IMG/VR virus record: IMGVR_UViG_3300012920_000264
Location: 1-23,846 of that record
Reading direction: 5' to 3' (one strand)
DNA length: 23,846 bases
From: a virus
Within the stretch, counting starts at the first letter, position 1; each line of letters starts with the position of its first letter. The translations under genes and the position numbers were made by a program. Below the pieces are notes generated by a model. That model was not told the origin of the DNA. It ran no database searches and worked only from the letters and a program-made list of their open reading frames with translations. Of this stretch, positions 10,448-21,797 are shown one piece after another.

Positions 10448-11068
10448 TTATACAAATCCCTCTAATAATTTTTTAAGTCCTTCAGCTGTTTGTATGATAG
10501 AGTTTGCTCCTGATCCTGGAGCTGATGTAACAGGAGATACATCAGGTGTCTCTATCAACTTTAAAGAACCGCAAGAAATTTTACATCTTCCAGCAGCATT
10601 AAGGTTTAAGTTTCTTTCGGCGGCAATACCTATTGCATCATTAGCATTAATTCTAACTTCACTCGTGTTCATATCAATAGTTGAATTAGAATTGATATTT
10701 ACAAATCCACTATCAGCACCGTTACCAGTGGCAATAAGATCAATATCTTTTGCCATAATTCTAACTCTACCTCTGGGGGCAAATAAAATTATATCACCAT
10801 TCTCGGCATATGTAATTGCTGATACTCCATTCACTGGTTTTTCACCACAACGAACATTATAACATGCAGGAGCAGAAACATTAATAGATCCATTAAGTGT
10901 TCCACTCATCTGAAGTGAAATATATTGACTTCTTCTAAATGAAGGATTAGGAAAAATGCGACGAATTAAAATCGCCATTTTGTTATTTCTATCATCAATA
11001 TTTTCAAAGGTAATCTCACCTGTTGTATTACCTATTCTATTAAAATCAGGACATGCATCTTTTGCCAT
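10448..11068 (-). CDS. beta-helix central-spike-like protein (206 aa)
   Basis: The ATG at 11068 shares one base with the stop of the gp5-like gene (TAATG). Residues 85-172 have short alternating hydrophobic steps: GDIILFAPRGRVRIMAKD, IDLIATG, FVNINSNSTIDMNTSEVRI, IGIAAERNLNLNAAGRCKI. This is the look of the triple-stranded beta-helix needle in T4 gp5 and VgrG proteins. The tail ends in a Pro/Gly/Ser linker and a short helix (AEGLKKLLEGF). T4 gp5 carries the needle in the same chain as its OB fold; here it seems to be a separate protein encoded right after the OB-fold gene. The expected role is the membrane-piercing spike below the hub. The residue count is short but compatible with a trimer. 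A peripheral beta-helix protein is the main alternative. Confidence 0.65.
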   Translation of the reverse strand: MAKDACPDFNRIGNTTGEITFENIDDRNNKMAILIRRIFPNPSFRRSQYISLQMSGTLNGSINVSAPACYNVRCGEKPVNGVSAITYAENGDIILFAPRGRVRIMAKDIDLIATGNGADSGFVNINSNSTIDMNTSEVRINANDAIGIAAERNLNLNAAGRCKISCGSLKLIETPDVSPVTSAPGSGANSIIQTAEGLKKLLEGFV

Positions 11069-14000
11069 TATACCTTACCTACACAATCAATAACTTGTAT
11101 GGTTGGAGTTCCAAACGGAACAACAAATCCAGATTCATTTGGTTTAATAAATTTAAGAACAGGTTTCAAGATTGCATTATATCCGGTTCTTGTATTTATT
11201 GATATGTCTGGAAGCGTTGTAAATCCTATTCCAGGATTTGTAATTCTGACTCCGGTAATTGCACCATTTTCTATTATTAAGTCTCCCGATCCGTTTCCAT
11301 CACCTATCACAAGACTATCGTCATCACCATATCCAAATCCTGGATTAATTACAATAATATCATCAATAGTAGGGATAACTTCATAGTCTCCATCAGGACT
11401 ACCATCTCCATTACCATCACCGTCTCCATCTCCAATATTTCCAATTCCATCTGAGGGGGGTTGATTAGGATCTTCAGGAGTTCCAGGAGGACATCCTGGT
11501 GCTGTAAAAGTAACACTGAATTCAGGAATTTTACCCCAATTAGGATCGAGCAGTTTTTGTCTCATTTTTTCACCTACTCTTAAGAAAAATTTATTCTCAA
11601 GATAAAATCTTATATCTTGCTCAGTAAACCCTTGATCAAAAGCTCTTTGAGCATCCACATCTAAACCAAACTGATGTCTAATTCCATAATCATATCTTCT
11701 TCCAAAAGTATAATCAAAATTTTGCATGTCCTTAATTTTAGGATTGACACCATTTACAATGCAACCGGGAATCATATTTTCTTCAAAATTTTCATCAATC
11801 ACTACAGGATTTTGTCCTGGTAATGTAACAGTATCTCCATAAAATACAGTCACTGTTTGTCCATTACTATAGGGTGAATCCCAATCATAGTTTGCCCTTA
11901 ATACAGTGCTTTGACATCTATTCGCCCAAACTCTACCACTTCCACCTTTGTCACCATAGGGGAATCCTTCGTATCCATATCCAGGATTAGTAATTAAAAC
12001 ACCTCTAATCGGAGCAGTAGGTATCTCTTCCTCTTCTTCCTCAAATACTGGAAGAGAGACTTTAGTTATTTTAAATAAAAATTCTTCATCATCACTACCT
12101 TCTTTAATACCATAACCCTTAATATCAGGGAAAGTTAGAATATCACCAACTTTATAACCTTTTCCTCGATCAACAATTCTAAAAATAGCATAAGAAGTAT
12201 TATTAGGCCTGCCTTCTTTGCCTGCTAAAGCATCAAACCTAGCACGAACTTTTAATCCTGTTCCACTTCCACCAATTAAATTTATATTATCCGTAACAGT
12301 GTCATTCAAACTTTTCCAAAGATCTGCCTGTCCTCCAAACACAGATAGTGCAGGTTCTCCTAATTTTTTAGGATAAAACCCAGGAGGATTTCCTGTAGCA
12401 AAGGTATAGGTTTCTTTTAACTCAAAAGCAAGAACTCGTCCAGCTGGAGAAATAATATTTCTACCATCACCGTCAGGACTACCATCTCCATCATCTCCAT
12501 CAGGACTACCATCTCCATCATCTCCGTCATCATCTCCATCAAAAATATCATCCTCATCTTCAACATCAGGATTACCCATTACTGGTATTCCTATTGCCCC
12601 CTTTCCGTTACCACATGAATCTTTTATCTCCATTAGTGGTGGTGATGCATATTTTCCTGGAGTAATTATATCAACTCCAATAACTTCTCCTAGAGCATTT
12701 ACAATTGGATTGCCAGTGCCACCAGATCCATCTCCACCAAAAAATTCAACTGTTGGAGGGCCACACGGAACGGGGCCTACATCACATCTACCATTAATAA
12801 TACTATCGAATATATTTCCAACATTAATATCTCCAAGAGGATTAAAATCTGTCCCGTCATCTTTTCTAAATGTAAAATCATCAAGAAGATCATCAAAGGT
12901 AGCAGTCACATTTCCTACTGTGCTGGATACCGATTCAACAAATCCTTTCGTTTGATTAAAAATATTTGTAAAGTTTAATTCTTTTTTAGGAGCAGTTGAT
13001 CCATTTAAAAAATCCCACTCTTCTGCTTCAGGACACTCATTTTCTACAGGACAAGTAATAATATCAAGAAGATTTTTTACAAAATTTAAAACATCATTTG
13101 TTAAATTAATTGCTTCTCCTATAATTCCACCAACCGAAGACAATATAGAATTAATTCCACCCAATAAATTACCTAAAACATTACCAAGGATTCCACTCAT
13201 AATGTTTTCAATTAAACATTCTGCAGAGTTAAGAACTTTATTGATTATTGAACTTAATATATTACCAATCATGCCTTCAAGTCCCTTTAATACTCTATAA
13301 AAGAGACAAGAAATTGCAGACAATGCTTTGTCTGTAGCTTCATTAGCTAAAAATCTAACACTAATCGGTACGTTACCGATTAGATTATTAATAATTGCAC
13401 TTACTTTTCTTAAAATAAATCTTCTAGTTTGCTGTATTAAAGAAGAAATTATATTTGCGATATCACTTGAAGCGTTTGCTAGTGATATGTTAAAGGAATT
13501 ACCAAAAAGATCAACACCAACTGATGCACCATTTATCGCATTTTGTGTGTCTGATAAAAATTGCTGTGAGGTTGCAAGGAAACTATCCTCACCAACAATA
13601 CCAGTTCTTAAACTTTCGACATCTCTAATTAAACCATCAACTGCATCATTGACACCCGAAGTGTTTATTTTTTTACACGCACTAGTAAAAGCAGGAAGTT
13701 TTGTATTAAAAGAATGTTTGACATCTTCGTCAGATAATGCCCTTGATCCAAATAATTCAGCAGAATTTAAATCACCTTTAAAAACATATGTATCAGGAAC
13801 AATACTATCGTTGATTGGAAGAAATCCAGAATATGCCCGATCACCTTTACTGTCCTTATCATTATCCTTTAAGAGATCTCTAATATAATTAGGAACCACT
13901 CTTTCAATAAGATACGTGCCACTATTAGGATCCTTAGAAACATAGACGTAAGTATTGGGAGTATACTTAATTGTCCCCATACTCTGTCCACCTAAACCAC

Positions 14001-14238
14001 TAGAGATTTGAAGTGGGTAAGCTACAGGAAGCATGGACTCATCCTTGTCAGGAGGATCCTGTCCTAAGATTCTAATTTTATATCGTTGAGCAACAACTTC
14101 CCTTTCATCACCATCTAAATTATTAAAAGGTTGAGTTTGTAATTGTGTTACTGTGCCAACGATTACGGCAACCATTCTCTGGGTTTCAACCCAGAGTCTT
14201 GCTGTCGATTTGGCATCGTATTTCTTCTCTAATCCCAT
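11068..14238 (-). CDS. gp5-like baseplate hub protein, OB fold plus long extension (1056 aa)
   Basis: Residues 20-120 resemble the N-terminal OB fold of T4 gp5: VVAQRYKIRILGQDPPD, then LPVAYPLQISSGLGGQS, TPNTYVYV and YLIERVVPNYIRD. The T4 lysozyme domain is not recognisable. Residues 250-395 are instead a run of amphipathic Ile/Leu/Asn/Gly-rich helices. Residues 495-555, 660-775 and 955-1030 carry repeated beta motifs of the type ITNPGYGY, INPGFGYGD and TNPGIGF. Two acidic tracts of GDGSPDG repeats (565-592, 936-951) may bind calcium or act as flexible linkers. The gene follows the gp27-like and 75-residue genes and precedes the spike-like gene, the order expected for the central hub. At 1056 residues it is nearly twice the length of T4 gp5 (575). 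Similar long hub proteins are annotated as gp5 in cyanophages. OB-fold homology is likely; the role of the extension is unknown. Confidence 0.75.
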   Translation of the reverse strand: MGLEKKYDAKSTARLWVETQRMVAVIVGTVTQLQTQPFNNLDGDEREVVAQRYKIRILGQDPPDKDESMLPVAYPLQISSGLGGQSMGTIKYTPNTYVYVSKDPNSGTYLIERVVPNYIRDLLKDNDKDSKGDRAYSGFLPINDSIVPDTYVFKGDLNSAELFGSRALSDEDVKHSFNTKLPAFTSACKKINTSGVNDAVDGLIRDVESLRTGIVGEDSFLATSQQFLSDTQNAINGASVGVDLFGNSFNISLANASSDIANIISSLIQQTRRFILRKVSAIINNLIGNVPISVRFLANEATDKALSAISCLFYRVLKGLEGMIGNILSSIINKVLNSAECLIENIMSGILGNVLGNLLGGINSILSSVGGIIGEAINLTNDVLNFVKNLLDIITCPVENECPEAEEWDFLNGSTAPKKELNFTNIFNQTKGFVESVSSTVGNVTATFDDLLDDFTFRKDDGTDFNPLGDINVGNIFDSIINGRCDVGPVPCGPPTVEFFGGDGSGGTGNPIVNALGEVIGVDIITPGKYASPPLMEIKDSCGNGKGAIGIPVMGNPDVEDEDDIFDGDDDGDDGDGSPDGDDGDGSPDGDGRNIISPAGRVLAFELKETYTFATGNPPGFYPKKLGEPALSVFGGQADLWKSLNDTVTDNINLIGGSGTGLKVRARFDALAGKEGRPNNTSYAIFRIVDRGKGYKVGDILTFPDIKGYGIKEGSDDEEFLFKITKVSLPVFEEEEEEIPTAPIRGVLITNPGYGYEGFPYGDKGGSGRVWANRCQSTVLRANYDWDSPYSNGQTVTVFYGDTVTLPGQNPVVIDENFEENMIPGCIVNGVNPKIKDMQNFDYTFGRRYDYGIRHQFGLDVDAQRAFDQGFTEQDIRFYLENKFFLRVGEKMRQKLLDPNWGKIPEFSVTFTAPGCPPGTPEDPNQPPSDGIGNIGDGDGDGNGDGSPDGDYEVIPTIDDIIVINPGFGYGDDDSLVIGDGNGSGDLIIENGAITGVRITNPGIGFTTLPDISINTRTGYNAILKPVLKFIKPNESGFVVPFGTPTIQVIDCVGKV
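11386..11433 (-). repeat. GDG-rich repeat tract, distal copy
   Basis: This short tract encodes GDGDGDGNGDGSPDGDY in the gp5-like protein. Its core of over 20 bases, encoding GDGSPDG, is nearly identical to the tract at 12463-12537, about 1.1 kb away in the same gene. Such sequence could allow slippage or intragenic recombination. The protein motif resembles Asp/Gly calcium-binding loops. Confidence 0.65.
12463..12537 (-). repeat. tandem GDGSPDG-encoding repeat
   Basis: Two tandem copies encode DDGDGSPDG followed by DDGDGSPDG within a longer acidic run in the gp5-like protein. The unit is about 27-30 bases, with nearly identical DNA in each copy, which suggests recent duplication or slippage. 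A third copy lies at 11386-11433. Confidence 0.7.
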
Positions 14239-15768: not shown

Positions 15769-18030
15769 TTAGGCGTTAATTGGGATGAATATGTTGTTTA
15801 CTTCACGTTTTACAGACATACCTTCACTAGAATATGATGTGGGTTGATCCAATCCTACACTACTAATTAGGTTAGATGAAGAAGTCTTTATTGAGGATAT
15901 TGAGGATTGATCTCGATTCATGTTTATTTGCTTTAAAAACTCAAGTGGATTAAGTGTTCCTTCAAATGCACCAGATTGTCCTGCCCTTCCTTTTCTTATT
16001 TCATAATGGAAAACACCAGTCATTTCAGAACCAGACTGAACAAGAGTTCCTCGATTGACAATATCTCCTTTCTTAACATGTATAATATTTCCCTCAGCGA
16101 TTCTTTCGGTAACTCCTAATTCAGCGTTGTAGATGTCCACAACATTTCCATATCCACCACCTGCATTTCTAGCATAGATAACCTCACCACCAATTCTTGA
16201 ATAGAACTTACTATTTCTATCATCAGCAGGATCAAAATCAACACCTGCGTGTTTTCTACCACCAGGACGAACAGCACCATATGCTTGTGCCCCTGTTCCT
16301 AGTGTGCCTGTGGGAGGAAGTGGTGGCATCACAGATGGAATACTAATCTTGGGAGTAGATGGTTGAACAGATGGTTGAACAGGTAATTGAGATGACATCA
16401 ATATGTCTACGTCACCACCAAGATATTCCGGCATTGCTGCAGCACTTATTGGATTATTTACGTCATAAATTGGTGTTGCACCAGAGACAGATATTGCAGT
16501 GAGTAATCCAGAAAGTTGTTTTATTTTCATTTCATTTATAGTCGTATCACCTAAAGCTATAACTTTATCTAGTTTTCCAAAAAAACTTTTTTGAAAATTT
16601 AATTCTTTTTCTAATTCAATATTTAACCTTTCAATATATTTTTTTTGATCTTCTTTAGATAATTGTAAAAATCTAGTAAGTCTCTTTTCAAGCAATGATT
16701 TACTATCAAATCCAATTGCTTCCAGTCCCCTATCCAACAACCACCCTGCAAAAAATTCTAAAAATACACCAATACCCATCTCTGCTCCAAATCTTCCAAA
16801 TTTTACAAAATTGGATGGTGTCATAAAACCCCTTGCATTACTCATCACCTTTTTTAATTTTGTCATTGCTGCAGCAGGTTTTAATTTTGAAAATTCAAGT
16901 TTACTACTTAATAATTTATTAAGTGGATAGATTGGTTTTGGTTTTGTATCAGGTTTAAATTTATAATCATCATCTAATAATTTTTCAACTGAAATACCGG
17001 TTTTTGATTTAGGTTCTACAAAATCCTCATCAAATAAAGAGTCTAAAAGAGATTTTTCAGTATATATTTCCTCAATTGCATCAGCAAGTCGGTTAATTCC
17101 GGCTTCTTTTTTTCTTACTCCTGCTGCTCGTTCTGCAAAAGTAGATTTCACCCCAGGTTCATCAGCAATAAAACCAGTTCCACCCTGCAAAGATTTACCT
17201 TCATATAACCCTTCAAGAAAAATTTTAGCGGTTTTGTCGGTTAATTTTGTACCAATAGGTAAATTCTGCCCAGGACTTTTAAAACTTGATGCTGCTGATG
17301 TTTGAAGTGCTTTCCTTCTCGTAGATTGCGCTATTGCTTTCTGTGCCACTGCTTCTGCACGTTTTATAGCTGCTTCTTGATTTAATCTAGTTAATTTAAT
17401 TTTTTCTATATTTTTTAATCGTTTTAATGCAACTGCTCTTCTCCCGCTAGCGCCAGCTGCCCCCTGTATTGCTGTTTTCGCAATGGGTTCACTTTGATTT
17501 AAAGCCTGCTCGCCACCATATAATCCCGTAATTATATTAGCAATGCCAAGAACACCAGTTAATACTTTATCTAATTGGTTTTGAAATGGAATAAATTTAG
17601 ATAAATCTGCATTTAAAATAGGAGATAATAAATCTTCTATTTTTTCCCTGTTCTCATCCAATCCCTCAAAGAAAGATGTTATTCCTCCAATTACTCCCTC
17701 TAAAAATTCTTTTGTCCCCTTTATAATATCACCTATTTTTTTGAGGATATTCTGTAATACAGGTAATATTGTTTTTAAATTTTGCAGAATAAATCCTGCC
17801 AACATAAAACCTAAAAACTTTTTTATATCTCCAAGGAAGTTTACTTTTTTGGATTGTTGTCCTTTTAATTTAATAAACCTTGCAGATTGTTTCTGTGCCT
17901 CAATCAAATCTTCTCTATCTTTCTTCTTTTTTGCTTGAATTGCTTTTCTTTCAGCAATAAATTTTTCCTTTCTAATTTGAAAGTTTTTCTTATAAGTTTT
18001 TACGATGGATCCAAAATTAGTAAATCTCAT
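15769..18030 (-). CDS. tape-measure/hub-type protein with degenerate M23 peptidase domain (753 aa)
   Basis: The ATG at 18030 overlaps the upstream stop (ATGA). Residues 20-60 are strongly basic and helical, followed by hydrophobic segments (FLGFMLAGFILQNLKTILP, 72-90) like those of tape-measure proteins that enter the host envelope. Residues 200-520 are Lys/Ala-rich helices with another hydrophobic stretch near 418-432. Residues 578-702 resemble an M23/LytM zinc peptidase: KHAGVDFD (H594, D598), GGGYGNVVDIY, VKKGDIVNRG and FHYEIRKG (H675). The three usual zinc ligands are present, but the two catalytic His, in the YxHL and HxH motifs, look replaced (RIAE at 643-646; V673 in VFH). It may therefore bind glycan or act weakly. 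It shares an N-terminal module with the 691-residue protein encoded just upstream. Confidence 0.7.
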   Translation of the reverse strand: MRFTNFGSIVKTYKKNFQIRKEKFIAERKAIQAKKKKDREDLIEAQKQSARFIKLKGQQSKKVNFLGDIKKFLGFMLAGFILQNLKTILPVLQNILKKIGDIIKGTKEFLEGVIGGITSFFEGLDENREKIEDLLSPILNADLSKFIPFQNQLDKVLTGVLGIANIITGLYGGEQALNQSEPIAKTAIQGAAGASGRRAVALKRLKNIEKIKLTRLNQEAAIKRAEAVAQKAIAQSTRRKALQTSAASSFKSPGQNLPIGTKLTDKTAKIFLEGLYEGKSLQGGTGFIADEPGVKSTFAERAAGVRKKEAGINRLADAIEEIYTEKSLLDSLFDEDFVEPKSKTGISVEKLLDDDYKFKPDTKPKPIYPLNKLLSSKLEFSKLKPAAAMTKLKKVMSNARGFMTPSNFVKFGRFGAEMGIGVFLEFFAGWLLDRGLEAIGFDSKSLLEKRLTRFLQLSKEDQKKYIERLNIELEKELNFQKSFFGKLDKVIALGDTTINEMKIKQLSGLLTAISVSGATPIYDVNNPISAAAMPEYLGGDVDILMSSQLPVQPSVQPSTPKISIPSVMPPLPPTGTLGTGAQAYGAVRPGGRKHAGVDFDPADDRNSKFYSRIGGEVIYARNAGGGYGNVVDIYNAELGVTERIAEGNIIHVKKGDIVNRGTLVQSGSEMTGVFHYEIRKGRAGQSGAFEGTLNPLEFLKQINMNRDQSSISSIKTSSSNLISSVGLDQPTSYSSEGMSVKREVNNIFIPINA
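15925..16299 (-). other. M23-like domain with missing catalytic histidines
   Basis: These bases encode residues 578-702 of the 753-residue protein. Expected zinc ligands are present (H594 and D598 in HAGVD; H675 in FHYE). The Tyr-x-His-Leu motif is replaced by RIAE (643-646), and the first His of the HxH motif is V673. The rest of the fold (GGGYGNVVDIY, VKKGDIVNRG) is intact, so this is not simple decay. Confidence 0.6.
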
Positions 18031-20102
18031 GATGCACTAACCATATCACCGATACCAAGATCTTTTGAAATAAGATCTCGCATTTTGTTACCAGACACTA
18101 CATTGAACGAGGGTATATCACCTTTTTGAATCGAGCTCTGATTTTGTTTAGGAGAATCAATAGGAGGTAATACGAAATTTTTAGTTTCTGTAGGTATATT
18201 AGGAGTGCCTACAGGAAGTGATCCTCCTCTCATCATTACCTGTATTTTTCTACCAAATCTTTGATATTCTCTTCTGGGAGCATTAACATAAGAATCGTAA
18301 TTACTACCAAAAGCAGGCCCATACATTTGCGAATCCATTGAATAACTTGATTTAGTCATTTTTGGAACGGATTGCAACCTTTGCGGAATGGGTGCGCCAA
18401 TATTTCTTCTTTCTAGATCATATGGTTTATTTTCTTGATAATACATGGAGAAGAAATTGTCATGTTCTGGATTTCTTAAAACATCATTTTCTTGCATATT
18501 ACCTTGCTGAGAAGTTCCAAAGAAATATGTTCTTCCTCCAACATGTTCTCTTGCTTTCTTTTGTAAATTGGTATTAGAGAGTGCTTTCTCAGTATCACTT
18601 AACATTTTAAGTGCGGTTTCCATAGTATATCCTGATTTTCTTCCCTTCTCAGAGTTCATTATAGCTATTGCCGCACTATTTCTATCAGTAATATTAAACC
18701 AATCTTGTGGATTTCCAAATGCTGGTTCATATTGTCCACCACCCGATTTACCCATGTCAGCTCTAGAGGTAATTATTGAAAATAAATCATTACCTCCCCT
18801 TTCATGTTGATAATAATTAGTCCCATAATTCTCGGCAGAGTATAATCTATTATATAAAGATTGTGCTACATCTGCTCTACCTTGAGGATCAGTATCTTCT
18901 AATGAAGTTATAGCAAGCAATGCATTGTAATCTCGATCTGTAATTTTAGGTGCATTCTTATCTACTATTCCACCACCCTGATATCTCATTACCTTTCCAA
19001 GTTTAGGACGGTTGGTTCCTCCACCCATCTTATTCATTGCCATCATGGTGTCGGCACCAAACATGTTGACAGCACCACGACTCATTATAAACTCGCCAGG
19101 AGTCAGCATAGCAGGGACTATATCTGTCCCCATGCTAAGTCCACCTCCAGATCTTCCTTCAACCGGTTTATTTAAACTAGGTAGTAATAACCTAGTAAAC
19201 AATTCAAGAAGATTAAATGGTTTAGACAACTCGTCTGCTGCTTCTTCAGGAGTAAACTCTCTACCTGCCTCTTCTTCTTCTCTTTCTATTATTTGTTCTG
19301 CTCCTGATTTAGTTCTTCGCCTTAATATCTCAGCACTAACACCAACACCTAGTGCAGCAGCAAGAATAGGATTTTTTGCAACGAGTAATCCAAGTTTTAA
19401 TAAAAATTTACCGACAGTTCCCACTACAAAATTAACTAGTTTACCAAAGGGTGTGAAAAAGTAAGCTAATGCCCCTAAAACAGCAGGCCAATAGTTTCTT
19501 AAAAATTGCTGTGTTGCAGCTATTTTTTCTTTATTTTCTGGATCAGTTAAAAAATTATAAAGTGTATTAATTAATCCGCTTAATAATGTAATTTTTAAAA
19601 ATTTCTTTAATTTTTCAAAAAACCCACCAATTTTACCTGTTTCTTTTTTTAAATTAAAAATAAAAATTTTAGATTCTTTTTTACCCTCAATCCTATCTTC
19701 TCTATCTTTTTTATTCTTTGCCTCTAGTTGTTTTTTATCTTCTTTTTGATCTTTCTTTTCTAACTTATTATCTTCTCGAATTACTTGAATGAGTTCATCA
19801 ATTTTATCGCCAAATTCTTCTCCGACTATATCAACATTATCAGGAATTATCTTTTTAGGATCTATTTTAACTTCTATTGGTTTAGCAACAACAGGAGGAG
19901 CACTAGGTAATCCAGGTGCTTGATATCTCTGTCCTTTTAAAGGATTGGAAAAAGTTTTTGTTTTAAAAAACTTATCAGTATCAATCTTACCACTACCAGT
20001 ATTATCTTCTCTGATAGATTTGAGAAGATCATCTAAATCCTTCCCTCCTTTAGAGTCATCATCTTCTTCTCTGATTGACTTTAAAAGATCGTCTAGATTC
20101 AT
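18027..20102 (-). CDS. tape-measure/hub-type protein with SleB-like hydrolase domain (691 aa)
   Basis: The ATG at 20102 shares one base with the stop of the preceding small ORF. Residues 3-12 and 23-32 are tandem copies of LDDLLKSIRE, with a looser third copy at 102-111 (DELIQVIRED). Residues 112-165 are a charged helix, and 168-262 hold hydrophobic segments (LLSGLINTLYNFL, WPAVLGALAYFF, FLLKLGLLVA, ILAAALGVGV). Residues 320-348 have the tail-protein motif DIVPAMLTPGEFIMSRGAVN, common in tape-measure proteins. Residues 388-530 resemble the SleB cell-wall hydrolase fold: LLAITSLED with candidate catalytic E402, QGRADVAQSLYNRL, LFSIITSRADMG and GGQYEPAFG. It is placed after the gp26-like chaperone genes and before the gp27/gp5 hub, where T4-like phages need gp29. 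Likely roles are length measurement, channel formation and local peptidoglycan opening. Confidence 0.7.
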   Translation of the reverse strand: MNLDDLLKSIREEDDDSKGGKDLDDLLKSIREDNTGSGKIDTDKFFKTKTFSNPLKGQRYQAPGLPSAPPVVAKPIEVKIDPKKIIPDNVDIVGEEFGDKIDELIQVIREDNKLEKKDQKEDKKQLEAKNKKDREDRIEGKKESKIFIFNLKKETGKIGGFFEKLKKFLKITLLSGLINTLYNFLTDPENKEKIAATQQFLRNYWPAVLGALAYFFTPFGKLVNFVVGTVGKFLLKLGLLVAKNPILAAALGVGVSAEILRRRTKSGAEQIIEREEEEAGREFTPEEAADELSKPFNLLELFTRLLLPSLNKPVEGRSGGGLSMGTDIVPAMLTPGEFIMSRGAVNMFGADTMMAMNKMGGGTNRPKLGKVMRYQGGGIVDKNAPKITDRDYNALLAITSLEDTDPQGRADVAQSLYNRLYSAENYGTNYYQHERGGNDLFSIITSRADMGKSGGGQYEPAFGNPQDWFNITDRNSAAIAIMNSEKGRKSGYTMETALKMLSDTEKALSNTNLQKKAREHVGGRTYFFGTSQQGNMQENDVLRNPEHDNFFSMYYQENKPYDLERRNIGAPIPQRLQSVPKMTKSSYSMDSQMYGPAFGSNYDSYVNAPRREYQRFGRKIQVMMRGGSLPVGTPNIPTETKNFVLPPIDSPKQNQSSIQKGDIPSFNVVSGNKMRDLISKDLGIGDMVSAS
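18513..18941 (-). other. SleB-like cell-wall hydrolase domain
   Basis: These bases encode residues 388-530 of the 691-residue protein. LLAITSLED places a Glu (E402) where SleB-type enzymes have the catalytic acid. QGRADVAQSLYNRL matches the following conserved helix with its Asn-Arg, and LFSIITSRADMG is the next typical segment. The domain should cut glycan strands of peptidoglycan. Confidence 0.6.
20007..20096 (-). repeat. tandem LDDLLKSIRE-encoding repeat
   Basis: The first 32 codons of the 691-residue gene contain two copies of a 30-base unit starting 60 bases apart (20096-20067 and 20036-20007). Both encode LDDLLKSIRE exactly, while the DNA differs at several silent positions. Keeping the protein sequence despite silent change suggests that the peptide itself is selected, for example as a docking helix. 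Confidence 0.75.
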
Positions 20103-20269
20103 TACCCTTGCTGCTGTTGCATTTTAAGTTTCTCTTCTTCCAAATGAGATCTTAGAAGTTCAACGTAAACATCTCTCTCCCAAGGTATCATATTTTCAAT
20201 CTCTGTTAATGAGTATTTATGGAACTGAATCAAAGAAAAATTTAATTTATAGTAACTCTCCAAATTCAT
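20102..20269 (-). CDS. small tail-assembly chaperone-like ORF, likely -1 frameshift extension of gp26-like (55 aa if free)
   Basis: The ORF encodes MNLESYYKLNFSLIQF, KYSLTEIENMIPWERDVYV, ELLRSHLEEEKLKMQQQQG. The PWERDVYVELL segment resembles the T part of tape-measure chaperones in long-tailed phages. It can be read in two ways. A free start at ATG 20269 has no good Shine-Dalgarno sequence and lies in the loop of a 7-bp hairpin. A -1 frameshift at 20293-20287 would instead join it to the gp26-like protein through the residues RLALSH, with no stop between, giving a product of about 299 residues. It directly precedes the tape-measure-type gene, as G/GT genes precede tape measures elsewhere. That the ORF is real is quite sure; the fused form is an inference from slippery site, spacer, stem and frame. 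Confidence 0.8.
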   Translation of the reverse strand: MNLESYYKLNFSLIQFHKYSLTEIENMIPWERDVYVELLRSHLEEEKLKMQQQQG

Positions 20270-20293
20270 ATGGGAGAGTGCTAAGCGAAAAAA
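20255..20293 (-). promoter_or_regulatory. programmed -1 ribosomal frameshift signal
   Basis: On the minus strand the gp26-like frame ends AGT TTT TTC GCT TAG. The heptamer T TTT TTC (20293-20287) fits the X XXY YYZ rule for tandem -1 slippage. A 7-nt spacer (20286-20280) follows, then a perfect 7-bp stem, ACTCTCC (20279-20273) with GGAGAGT (20261-20255), closing an 11-nt loop that holds the ATG of the next ORF. The -1 frame reads CGC TTA GCA CTC TCC CAT ATG and continues into that ORF. The loop AATTT could also pair with a nearby AAATT to form a pseudoknot; this is speculative. Confidence 0.75.
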
Positions 20294-21000
20294 CTAGAGA
20301 GTCCCTCAAGAACAACCTTGCCTTTCTTTTTAGTCTTTGGATTTAACACTTCAACTTCATGACTAAGTTTAGGCATAGTTGTAAAGAACTTTTCAATTTG
20401 CTTAAACTGTGCTGAATTCATTTGCTCTAAGAAATCAGTGATTTCTTTTTTAGTAAAGTCTTCAGATGTCCAAGCCTCATCCTCAGATACTACTTTATCA
20501 ACACAAGATGCTATTAAATCAAAAGATTGATCTACTTGATTTTCCTCTCCAAAATCAAAATTGTTTTTTACAAATTGATTTAGTGAGGGATATCTCATCT
20601 CCATCATCAATTTATTATCAATTTTGATTTGATTTGAATGTTCTTTATCTTTTGATACTTTAATATCATCGATGTTGATTTGAACTTCAGCATAAGTTTC
20701 TCCATCATCAGGACAGAGAACACTTACTTCGATATCCTCACCAACAGACTTACCGCGAATATTGAGGAACAAATATTCAATATCAAAAGTAGGTAGAGTC
20801 TCTACTTTAATACCGCGAGTCTGAATGCAATCTTTGAGAACTGCTTTAATAGCGTTGGTGATTTCTTTTGTATCGTCGCTCTCAAGTGCAAGAACTAATA
20901 ACTTTTCTTCTTTAACAAGGAAAGGACGAAATCTAATTGTTTTTCCAGTCGAAGGCAACTCCAACTCATAAGTTGGTGTTGAAATTTTTGGTAAAGGCAT
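20281..21000 (-). CDS. 26: gp26-like baseplate hub assembly protein (239 aa)
   Basis: The N-terminus YELELPSTGKTIRFRPFLVKEEKLLVLALES is the hallmark of the T4 baseplate protein family that includes gp26 (208 residues in T4). Later landmarks are LPTFDIEYLFLNIRGKSVGE, ALCPDDG-like VLCPDDGETY, MRYPSL and the conserved C-terminal FLEQMNSAQFKQIEKFFTTMPKL. In T4, gp26 is needed for hub assembly. The overall shape, with a beta-rich N-terminus, a helical C-terminus and a position just before the tape-measure-type gene, resembles G-type tail chaperones. The last in-frame codons before the TAG form a slippery heptamer, so part of the translation may extend into the next ORF. A late-promoter-like AATAAATA lies about 20 nt upstream of the ATG. 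Confidence 0.8.
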   Translation of the reverse strand: MPLPKISTPTYELELPSTGKTIRFRPFLVKEEKLLVLALESDDTKEITNAIKAVLKDCIQTRGIKVETLPTFDIEYLFLNIRGKSVGEDIEVSVLCPDDGETYAEVQINIDDIKVSKDKEHSNQIKIDNKLMMEMRYPSLNQFVKNNFDFGEENQVDQSFDLIASCVDKVVSEDEAWTSEDFTKKEITDFLEQMNSAQFKQIEKFFTTMPKLSHEVEVLNPKTKKKGKVVLEGLSSFFA

Positions 21001-21020: not shown

Positions 21021-21028
21021 TATTTATT
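21021..21028 (-). promoter_or_regulatory. candidate T4-type late promoter before gp26-like gene
   Basis: The minus strand reads AATAAATA, seven of eight positions matching the T4 late consensus. It overlaps the stop codon of the gp54-like gene and lies 20 nt before the gp26-like ATG, in one of the few gaps of the operon (26 nt). It would start the hub and tape-measure transcript. Confidence 0.5.
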
Positions 21029-21797
21029 AGGATCCAAGAATGTTAGGCCCAAAATCTCTTCCTCCTGCTTCTTCAAGTTGTTCAGCAAGTTGTGCAAGAG
21101 TTGGCCTTCCATCAGCAATCGTAACTGGTAATGTGCTTCCGTCAGCTCTTTGGAGATCTAGTTTTTGCGTTGCTGCTCTTTGAGTATTCACAATGTATCG
21201 AGAGAAGTTAAAGTTTACGGTACATACAAGCACCTGAGATGCATCATAACTCAAGGGCATTGTATTTATTGATATCGGATAAGCATTTAAAAATGTATAT
21301 TCTAAATTTCTATTTGCATAATTTTTTTCAAATTTTCTAATATAAATTTGAGATTTATATTCATCAGGAAAGTTTACTCTGTAAGTATAGTTATTATTTT
21401 CTAATTTTTTGTTAGATGTATCCTCATTAATTATAAATTTAATCCAGTTTTCAAAAAGAAGTATAGGGGTATATTTTGTGTCAACATAAAATTCAAATGA
21501 TGATATCCCTGAATATTGTCTTCTATACACATGTCTTTCTGTTACACCAGTAAAATCATTTAACTGTTCATGAGTTGCCAAGTTGGTTTCAGGAAGTGCA
21601 GCCGCTCTACAAGACAAACTAATTTTTTCCTCTTTTGAAGAATTTAAACTTCCACCAACTCCACTTCTACTAGCCATCCAATTTTTTACAGCAGTAGGAA
21701 ATACGAATGTTGTTTCGTAAGTTGATGTTAAAGATGGATTAAGTATGTTTGCCTTTAAATCAGCAACATTTCTTGCTCTTGGGTTTGGCGTTGCCAT
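21027..21797 (-). CDS. 54: gp54-like baseplate tail-tube initiator (256 aa)
   Basis: The protein fits the tail-tube fold shared by T4 gp19 and gp54. Landmarks are ISLSCRAAALPETNLATHEQ, FTGVTERHVYRRQYSGISSFEFYVD and FENWIKFI, then a beta-strand pair YTYRVNFPDEYKSQIYIRKFE, and the strongly typical close YTFLNAYPISINTMPLSYDA followed by VCTVNFNFSRYIV. In T4 gp54 the corresponding end reads like a tube subunit and starts tube polymerisation on the baseplate. The length (256) lies between gp19 (163) and gp54 (320). The last 45 residues are a polar tail. The gene is divergent from gp4 and opposite in strand to the gp48-like gene, its expected partner. A tail-tube protein proper is the main alternative, but the baseplate context favours gp54. 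Confidence 0.75.
   Translation of the reverse strand: MATPNPRARNVADLKANILNPSLTSTYETTFVFPTAVKNWMASRSGVGGSLNSSKEEKISLSCRAAALPETNLATHEQLNDFTGVTERHVYRRQYSGISSFEFYVDTKYTPILLFENWIKFIINEDTSNKKLENNNYTYRVNFPDEYKSQIYIRKFEKNYANRNLEYTFLNAYPISINTMPLSYDASQVLVCTVNFNFSRYIVNTQRAATQKLDLQRADGSTLPVTIADGRPTLAQLAEQLEEAGGRDFGPNILGS

Follow-up and report, generated by a model that had tools for sequence, protein, structure and literature searches.

The window analysed here, positions 1 to 23,846 of IMG/VR virus record IMGVR_UViG_3300012920_000264 from a marine phage, carries on its minus strand a gp26-like gene followed by an open reading frame (ORF) of 55 amino acids. We hold with high confidence, chiefly from comparison of related sequences, that a programmed -1 frameshift at this junction yields two tail assembly chaperones (TACs), a short TAC-N and a long TAC-NC, and this statement includes the case in which a little free C-domain is made as well. 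The gp26-like gene and the 55-aa ORF would thus constitute one TAC gene with two products. The majority of ribosomes would end at the TAG stop codon and release the short form, the equivalent of lambda gpG, and a minority would move back by one nucleotide at the heptamer T TTT TTC, aided by a downstream hairpin and perhaps also by a weak Shine-Dalgarno (SD)-like stretch upstream of the heptamer. Slipped ribosomes would read the -1 frame and produce the long form, the equivalent of lambda gpGT, which ends in a gp51 C-terminal domain of about 60 residues. If lambda is a guide, the role of the short form may be to coat the tape-measure protein, and that of the C-terminal domain to recruit tail-tube subunits. 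Phase, conservation, constraint, selection on structure, homology and predicted fold were established by computation, while the slippage itself, its rate and its role in assembly are inferred. Production of two chaperone versions by a -1 slip before a stop codon is a classic phage device.

The junction in the window

On the minus strand the junction reads ...GAG GGA CTC TCT AG[T TTT TTC] GCT TAG C ACTCTCC CATATGAATTT GGAGAGT... and comprises the following features:

20281..21000, minus strand: gp26-like gene, 239 aa, putative short form TAC-N (lambda G equivalent); PF12322 E 1.6e-73, phrog_150 E 2.5e-78
20287..20293, minus strand: slippery heptamer T TTT TTC in X XXY YYZ phase, followed by one sense codon (GCT) and the stop
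20281..20283, minus strand: TAG stop of the 0 frame, end of the short form, read from the sequence
20280..20286, minus strand: 7-nt spacer GCTTAGC between heptamer and stem; the combination of 7-nt spacer, 7 bp and 11-nt loop also occurs in loci L001 and L002
20255..20279, minus strand: stem-loop of 7 bp with an 11-nt loop (20279-20273 paired with 20261-20255; loop 20272-20262)
20102..20292, minus strand: -1 frame from the slippery codons to its stop, the candidate TAC-C extension (FFRLALSHMNLESYY...) and T part of the fusion, with a match to phrog_634 (gp51)
20102..20269, minus strand: 55-aa ORF as called conventionally from the ATG in the loop; a free product is possible but unsupported, and there is no SD sequence
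20302..20307, minus strand: weak SD-like GAGGGA, 8 nt upstream of the heptamer, a possible stimulator

The original prediction had placed T TTT TTC in the phase of the gp26-like frame, which is correct; its distance of "two codons before the stop" counts the TAG itself, as a single sense codon lies between. The 7-nt spacer, the perfect 7-bp stem and the 11-nt loop are all present where they had been reported on the minus strand, and the -1 frame (FF-RLALSH-MNLESYY...) is indeed open through RLALSH into the 55-residue ORF and onwards to position 20102. The ATG of this ORF (20269-20267) lies inside the hairpin loop. The heptamer by itself says little, as X XXY YYZ heptamers in phase occur often in this A+T-rich window, about 70 times in 13 genes. 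For the hairpin, the folding energy is -9.4 kcal/mol (z -2.17), a value matched by 6 of 200 shuffles. With chance heptamers common and the hairpin modest by itself, the case rests on the relatives.

Conservation of the heptamer and synonymous constraint

Five productive protein-guided scans of viral contigs, two of which gave only a handful of loci, were combined with isolates into a set of 207 distinct homologous junctions with enough flanking sequence. Scans with gp26 of Cr30 and PX29 as queries returned few loci and one with gp26 of Bakedbeans returned none. T TTT TT(C/A/T) is found in phase and one codon before the stop (two codons in phiN3) in 206 of the 207 junctions, the only one without T TTT TTN being that of the Ackermannviridae phage phiA8-29. 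All 206 heptamer-bearing loci feature an open -1 frame of 44-71 residues, about 60-70 in nearly all of them; the shortest, with 44 residues, belongs to a locus at a contig end. An alignment of the gp26 stop region across relatives, suggested in the original prediction as a check, thus reveals both the heptamer and the open -1 frame almost throughout.

The constraint appears to act on nucleotides. Among the 207 aligned genes, synonymous diversity of the two slippery codons amounts to 0.000 and 0.095 of that expected, the lowest two values of 224 codon columns (median 0.94; no other column below 0.35). The first slippery codon is TTT in 206 of 206 loci. The second is TTC in 183 of the 187 loci that encode Phe at this position, while about 90% of the codons in the other Phe columns of the gene are TTT. 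The preceding codon ends in T in 206 of 206 cases, be it a codon for Ser, Asp, Asn, Gly or Ala. In 20 loci the second slippery codon is TTA (Leu), by which the heptamer is preserved as T TTT TTA. Such a pattern is expected where nucleotides, not amino acids, are selected. The heptamer T TTT TTA is also that of HIV-1 gag-pol, and in many of these 20 loci (the L138-L170 group) it is followed, after 5 nt, by a strong hairpin of some 8 bp.

Some Ackermannviridae-type relatives (L089, L258, L259, L260) deviate in that a non-canonical A CTT TTY occupies the site, or G GCT TTC in YC. In phiA8-29, D528 and 1.255.O a homologous C-domain nevertheless follows in an uninterrupted -1 frame, and D528, 1.255.O and YC exhibit a TAATG stop-start overlap. 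In these four phages slippage may take place at a different site, or initiation may be coupled.

Downstream RNA structure

A downstream RNA structure is a frequent, though not a universal, stimulator of G/GT-type frameshifts. Close to the stop, a stretch of 42 nt folds more stably than shuffles that are synonymous in the -1 frame, with a mean z of -2.3 for the 182 loci of TTC type and -3.5 for the 20 of TTA type. Control windows on either side range mostly from -0.5 to 0.2, with one at -1.2. The commonest hairpin among relatives of the window comprises 5 bp with a loop of AUAU or ACAU and follows a 10-nt spacer. All five of its pairs vary on both sides (39 cells, 0 of 500 shuffles, 66 distinct sequences). 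The window itself lacks this hairpin, its own form with 7 bp and an 11-nt loop being restricted to the window and a few near relatives, and further hairpin forms are present in P-HM2-like and TTA-type phages. As each of these groups carries other forms, the heptamer stays fixed among relatives while the hairpin is rebuilt. The original prediction had looked to conservation of the stem in relatives: a downstream hairpin is selected, but the exact 7-bp/11-nt form is clade-specific, and as an element conserved in the wider set it was rejected since its covariation did not exceed that of shuffles.

The same data bear on transcriptional slippage, by which RNA polymerase would slip on the run of T and create mixed mRNAs that fuse the two frames. 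In favour of this explanation, the site is a run of T, but it comprises only six T in 202 of the 207 loci and has remained T TTT TTC/A instead of growing longer, and a selected RNA hairpin at ribosome distance fits ribosomal slippage better. We regard transcriptional slippage as extremely improbable.

GAGGG was also considered as a conserved stimulator and not retained. Pairing of the SD-like stretch with the anti-SD sequence is only modestly stronger than in synonymous shuffles (-6.3 versus -5.3 kcal/mol, 207 loci), a difference of about 1 kcal/mol, and the Glu and Gly codons concerned are not under synonymous constraint.

Possible independent initiation of the second ORF

If the two ORFs encoded separate proteins, the short form would end at TAG and the 55-aa ORF would be started independently or by coupled re-initiation at the ATG in the loop. 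The window does have an in-frame ATG, as do 137 of 205 relatives, depositors annotated two ORFs in most of the isolates checked, and several more distant relatives have TAATG or TGATG stop-start overlaps that are suited to coupling. However, the -1 frame ahead of the conserved core contains no ATG in 68 of 205 loci and none of ATG, GTG and TTG in 56 of 205. With so many loci devoid of an ATG before the core, fusion is the likely route. Furthermore, the constraint on the slippery codons sits upstream of any separate gene, and the starts annotated for the second gene are scattered over public records and cut into the conserved domain, as exemplified by a gp51 of only 31 codons in P-HM2, or the gene is left out as in Asswx_1. 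Two separate proteins therefore appear very improbable.

An alternative with both routes, in which frameshifting provides the fusion and the ATG in the loop adds a small amount of free C-domain in those clades that keep it, is somewhat more probable but still unlikely. Here, it can be argued that the ATG is retained in about two thirds of the loci and that His-Met sits in the loop of the covarying hairpin. On the other hand, there is no SD sequence, the hairpin would hide the ATG, and His-Met may be kept for the sake of the protein or of the RNA fold, two options that sequence cannot tell apart.

No SD sequence was found at the ATG of the 55-aa ORF, just as the original prediction had noted for this ATG in the loop. 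As an observation this stands, but its use as evidence for frameshifting was rejected: the gp26 start and most other starts in the window are likewise without one, and its absence is uninformative here for that reason.

The C-domain annotation in the public records of P-HM2 (L082), Asswx_1 (L257) and D528 (L258) is cut short, absent or at another place, which we attribute to the frameshift not having been annotated.

Homology and predicted fold of the proposed products

The 55-aa ORF matches phrog_634 (gp51, E 1.4e-25) as well as the C-terminal end of phrog_150 (residues 241-280 of 282) and is by homology the C-terminal domain of gp51. A search of NCBIfam gave no useful match. The AlphaFold2 model of the gp26-like short form has a mean predicted local distance difference test score (pLDDT) of 87. 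Its best matches among solved structures are 3fgx, HK97 gp13 (2ob9) and YqbN (3klu), with Z values of 7.4-7.9, followed by PICI ORF19 (5ir0). All four are TAC or TAC-like proteins and align to residues 1-96 (Z 7.9-4.8), and the next match drops to a Z of 2.6. This specific match is suggestive of a TAC fold for the gp26-like protein, though not proof of it.

As a whole, the proposal that the gp26-like protein serves as G and the small ORF as T through a -1 frameshift finds agreement in heptamer conservation, synonymous constraint, hairpin covariation, the relatives lacking an ATG and the predicted fold. Several points weigh against it. The structural Z values all stay below 8 and are each weak by themselves, and a Foldseek search with the gp26-like model gave nothing significant (best E 0.67, with 2ob9 ranked third). 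The hairpin of the window differs from the one that covaries in most relatives, 20 of the 207 loci are without a simple stem of at least 5 bp, and the identification of the 691-aa gene downstream as a tape-measure gene is tentative.

Genomic context

Two genes directly flank the putative frameshift gene:

21027..21797, minus strand: tail tube gene, directly upstream; phrog_45 E 5.4e-36, PF23849 E 9.7e-16
18027..20102, minus strand: 691-aa gene, directly downstream; phrog_35029 (unknown function), tentative tape-measure candidate

The original prediction expected the chaperone pair just ahead of the tape-measure gene. The tail tube gene upstream is clear, but the downstream 691-aa gene is only tentatively the tape measure: its tape-measure matches are weak (E 0.008 and worse) and fall on the LTPGEF region. 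Consecutive genes for 691 and 753 aa occupy 15769-20102, overlap by ATGA, and both products look like tail-interior proteins. Neither phmmer nor BLAST detected any similarity of these two to T4 gp29. The 753-aa protein has a Peptidase_M23 match slightly under the Pfam cut-off. Further along, a 1056-aa gene (11068-14238) matches baseplate hub/tail lysozyme (phrog_1922), and one stretch of it matches several tape-measure families.

T4 gp26 and gp51 and the origin of the two-gene arrangement

T4 gp26 spans the N-domain only, and T4 gp51 combines the N-domain with the C-domain of the 55-aa ORF family (phrog_634, E 1.2e-23). Judged by this domain content, T4 encodes the short form (gp26) and the long form (gp51) as two genes. 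The products thus correspond to those predicted for the phage studied here, but in T4 genes 26 and 51 are separate and divergently transcribed instead of meeting at a joined junction, and no slippery site is found at the end of T4 gene 26. Separate genes for short and long chaperone forms also occur in 44RR (L256) and EC-F2 (L264), which like T4 (L090) belong to the Straboviridae; PX29 (L087) and Asswx_1 (L257), members of the same family, have kept the frameshift arrangement.

In our tree a branch with 91/96 support parts two-gene from frameshift proteins. The branches are long and the root is a midpoint only. It is conceivable, at somewhat less than an even chance, that frameshifting is ancestral in T4-type tail chaperones, that it gave way to separate genes 26 and 51 in T4 through duplication with a fused copy, and that in the frameshifting phages the hairpin was repeatedly rebuilt in other shapes next to an unchanged heptamer, tuning the ratio of the two forms.

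T4 gp26 (L090, 4803-5429) also yields a weak profile match (E 0.00094) to phrog_1140, which stands for the hub distal subunit gp28, a hint of a possible relationship with gp28 as well.

Comparison with known systems

Vladimirov, Gautam & Davidson (2022, Virology 566:9-15) are reported to have identified the TAC genes of T4-like phages. The PRFect paper (PMC10885494) cites them for T4-like phages in which a short gene is accompanied by a long one that is fused and stands apart, and the phage Adele paper (PMC12846349) credits the same work with poly-T slippery signals in T4-like TAC-N genes. To judge from these citations, the tail assembly chaperones in question very probably belong to the same protein family as those described here, and the suggestion in the original prediction that such a frameshift is not known to have been described for T4-like marine phages is wrong for T4-like phages in general. 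Our literature search found no direct report on frameshifting in cyanophages, and the covariation and synonymous-constraint data on cyanophage-type loci may constitute additions to prior work. In the Vandenendeviridae, phage Adele has a conserved poly-T motif near the TAC-N end and an open -1 frame (PMC12846349). These two traits are shared with the phage studied here, but the Adele motif is GTTTTT and the phage family is a different one.

The proposed frameshift would explain a gene pair that is listed in the sampled cyanophage records as two "baseplate hub" proteins, the second often truncated or missing. It would also link gp26 and gp51, hub proteins of T4 that have long been a puzzle, with the tail-chaperone system in general. 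Proteome searches should look for the long form as a fusion, and annotation should join the two ORFs into one gene. More than 200 natural variants, in which the heptamer is constant and the hairpin varies, make up a ready set for measuring stimulator requirements.

Compared with lambda G/GT, the phage studied here is a myovirus, its heptamer is T TTT TTC in place of the G GGA AAG of lambda, and there is no profile match to lambda G. The gp26-like protein is also larger and has further domains in addition to its TAC-like N-terminus. A point of likeness to lambda G/GT and other phage TAC frameshifts is suggested by its predicted fold, for which HK97 gp13 is among the best solved matches.
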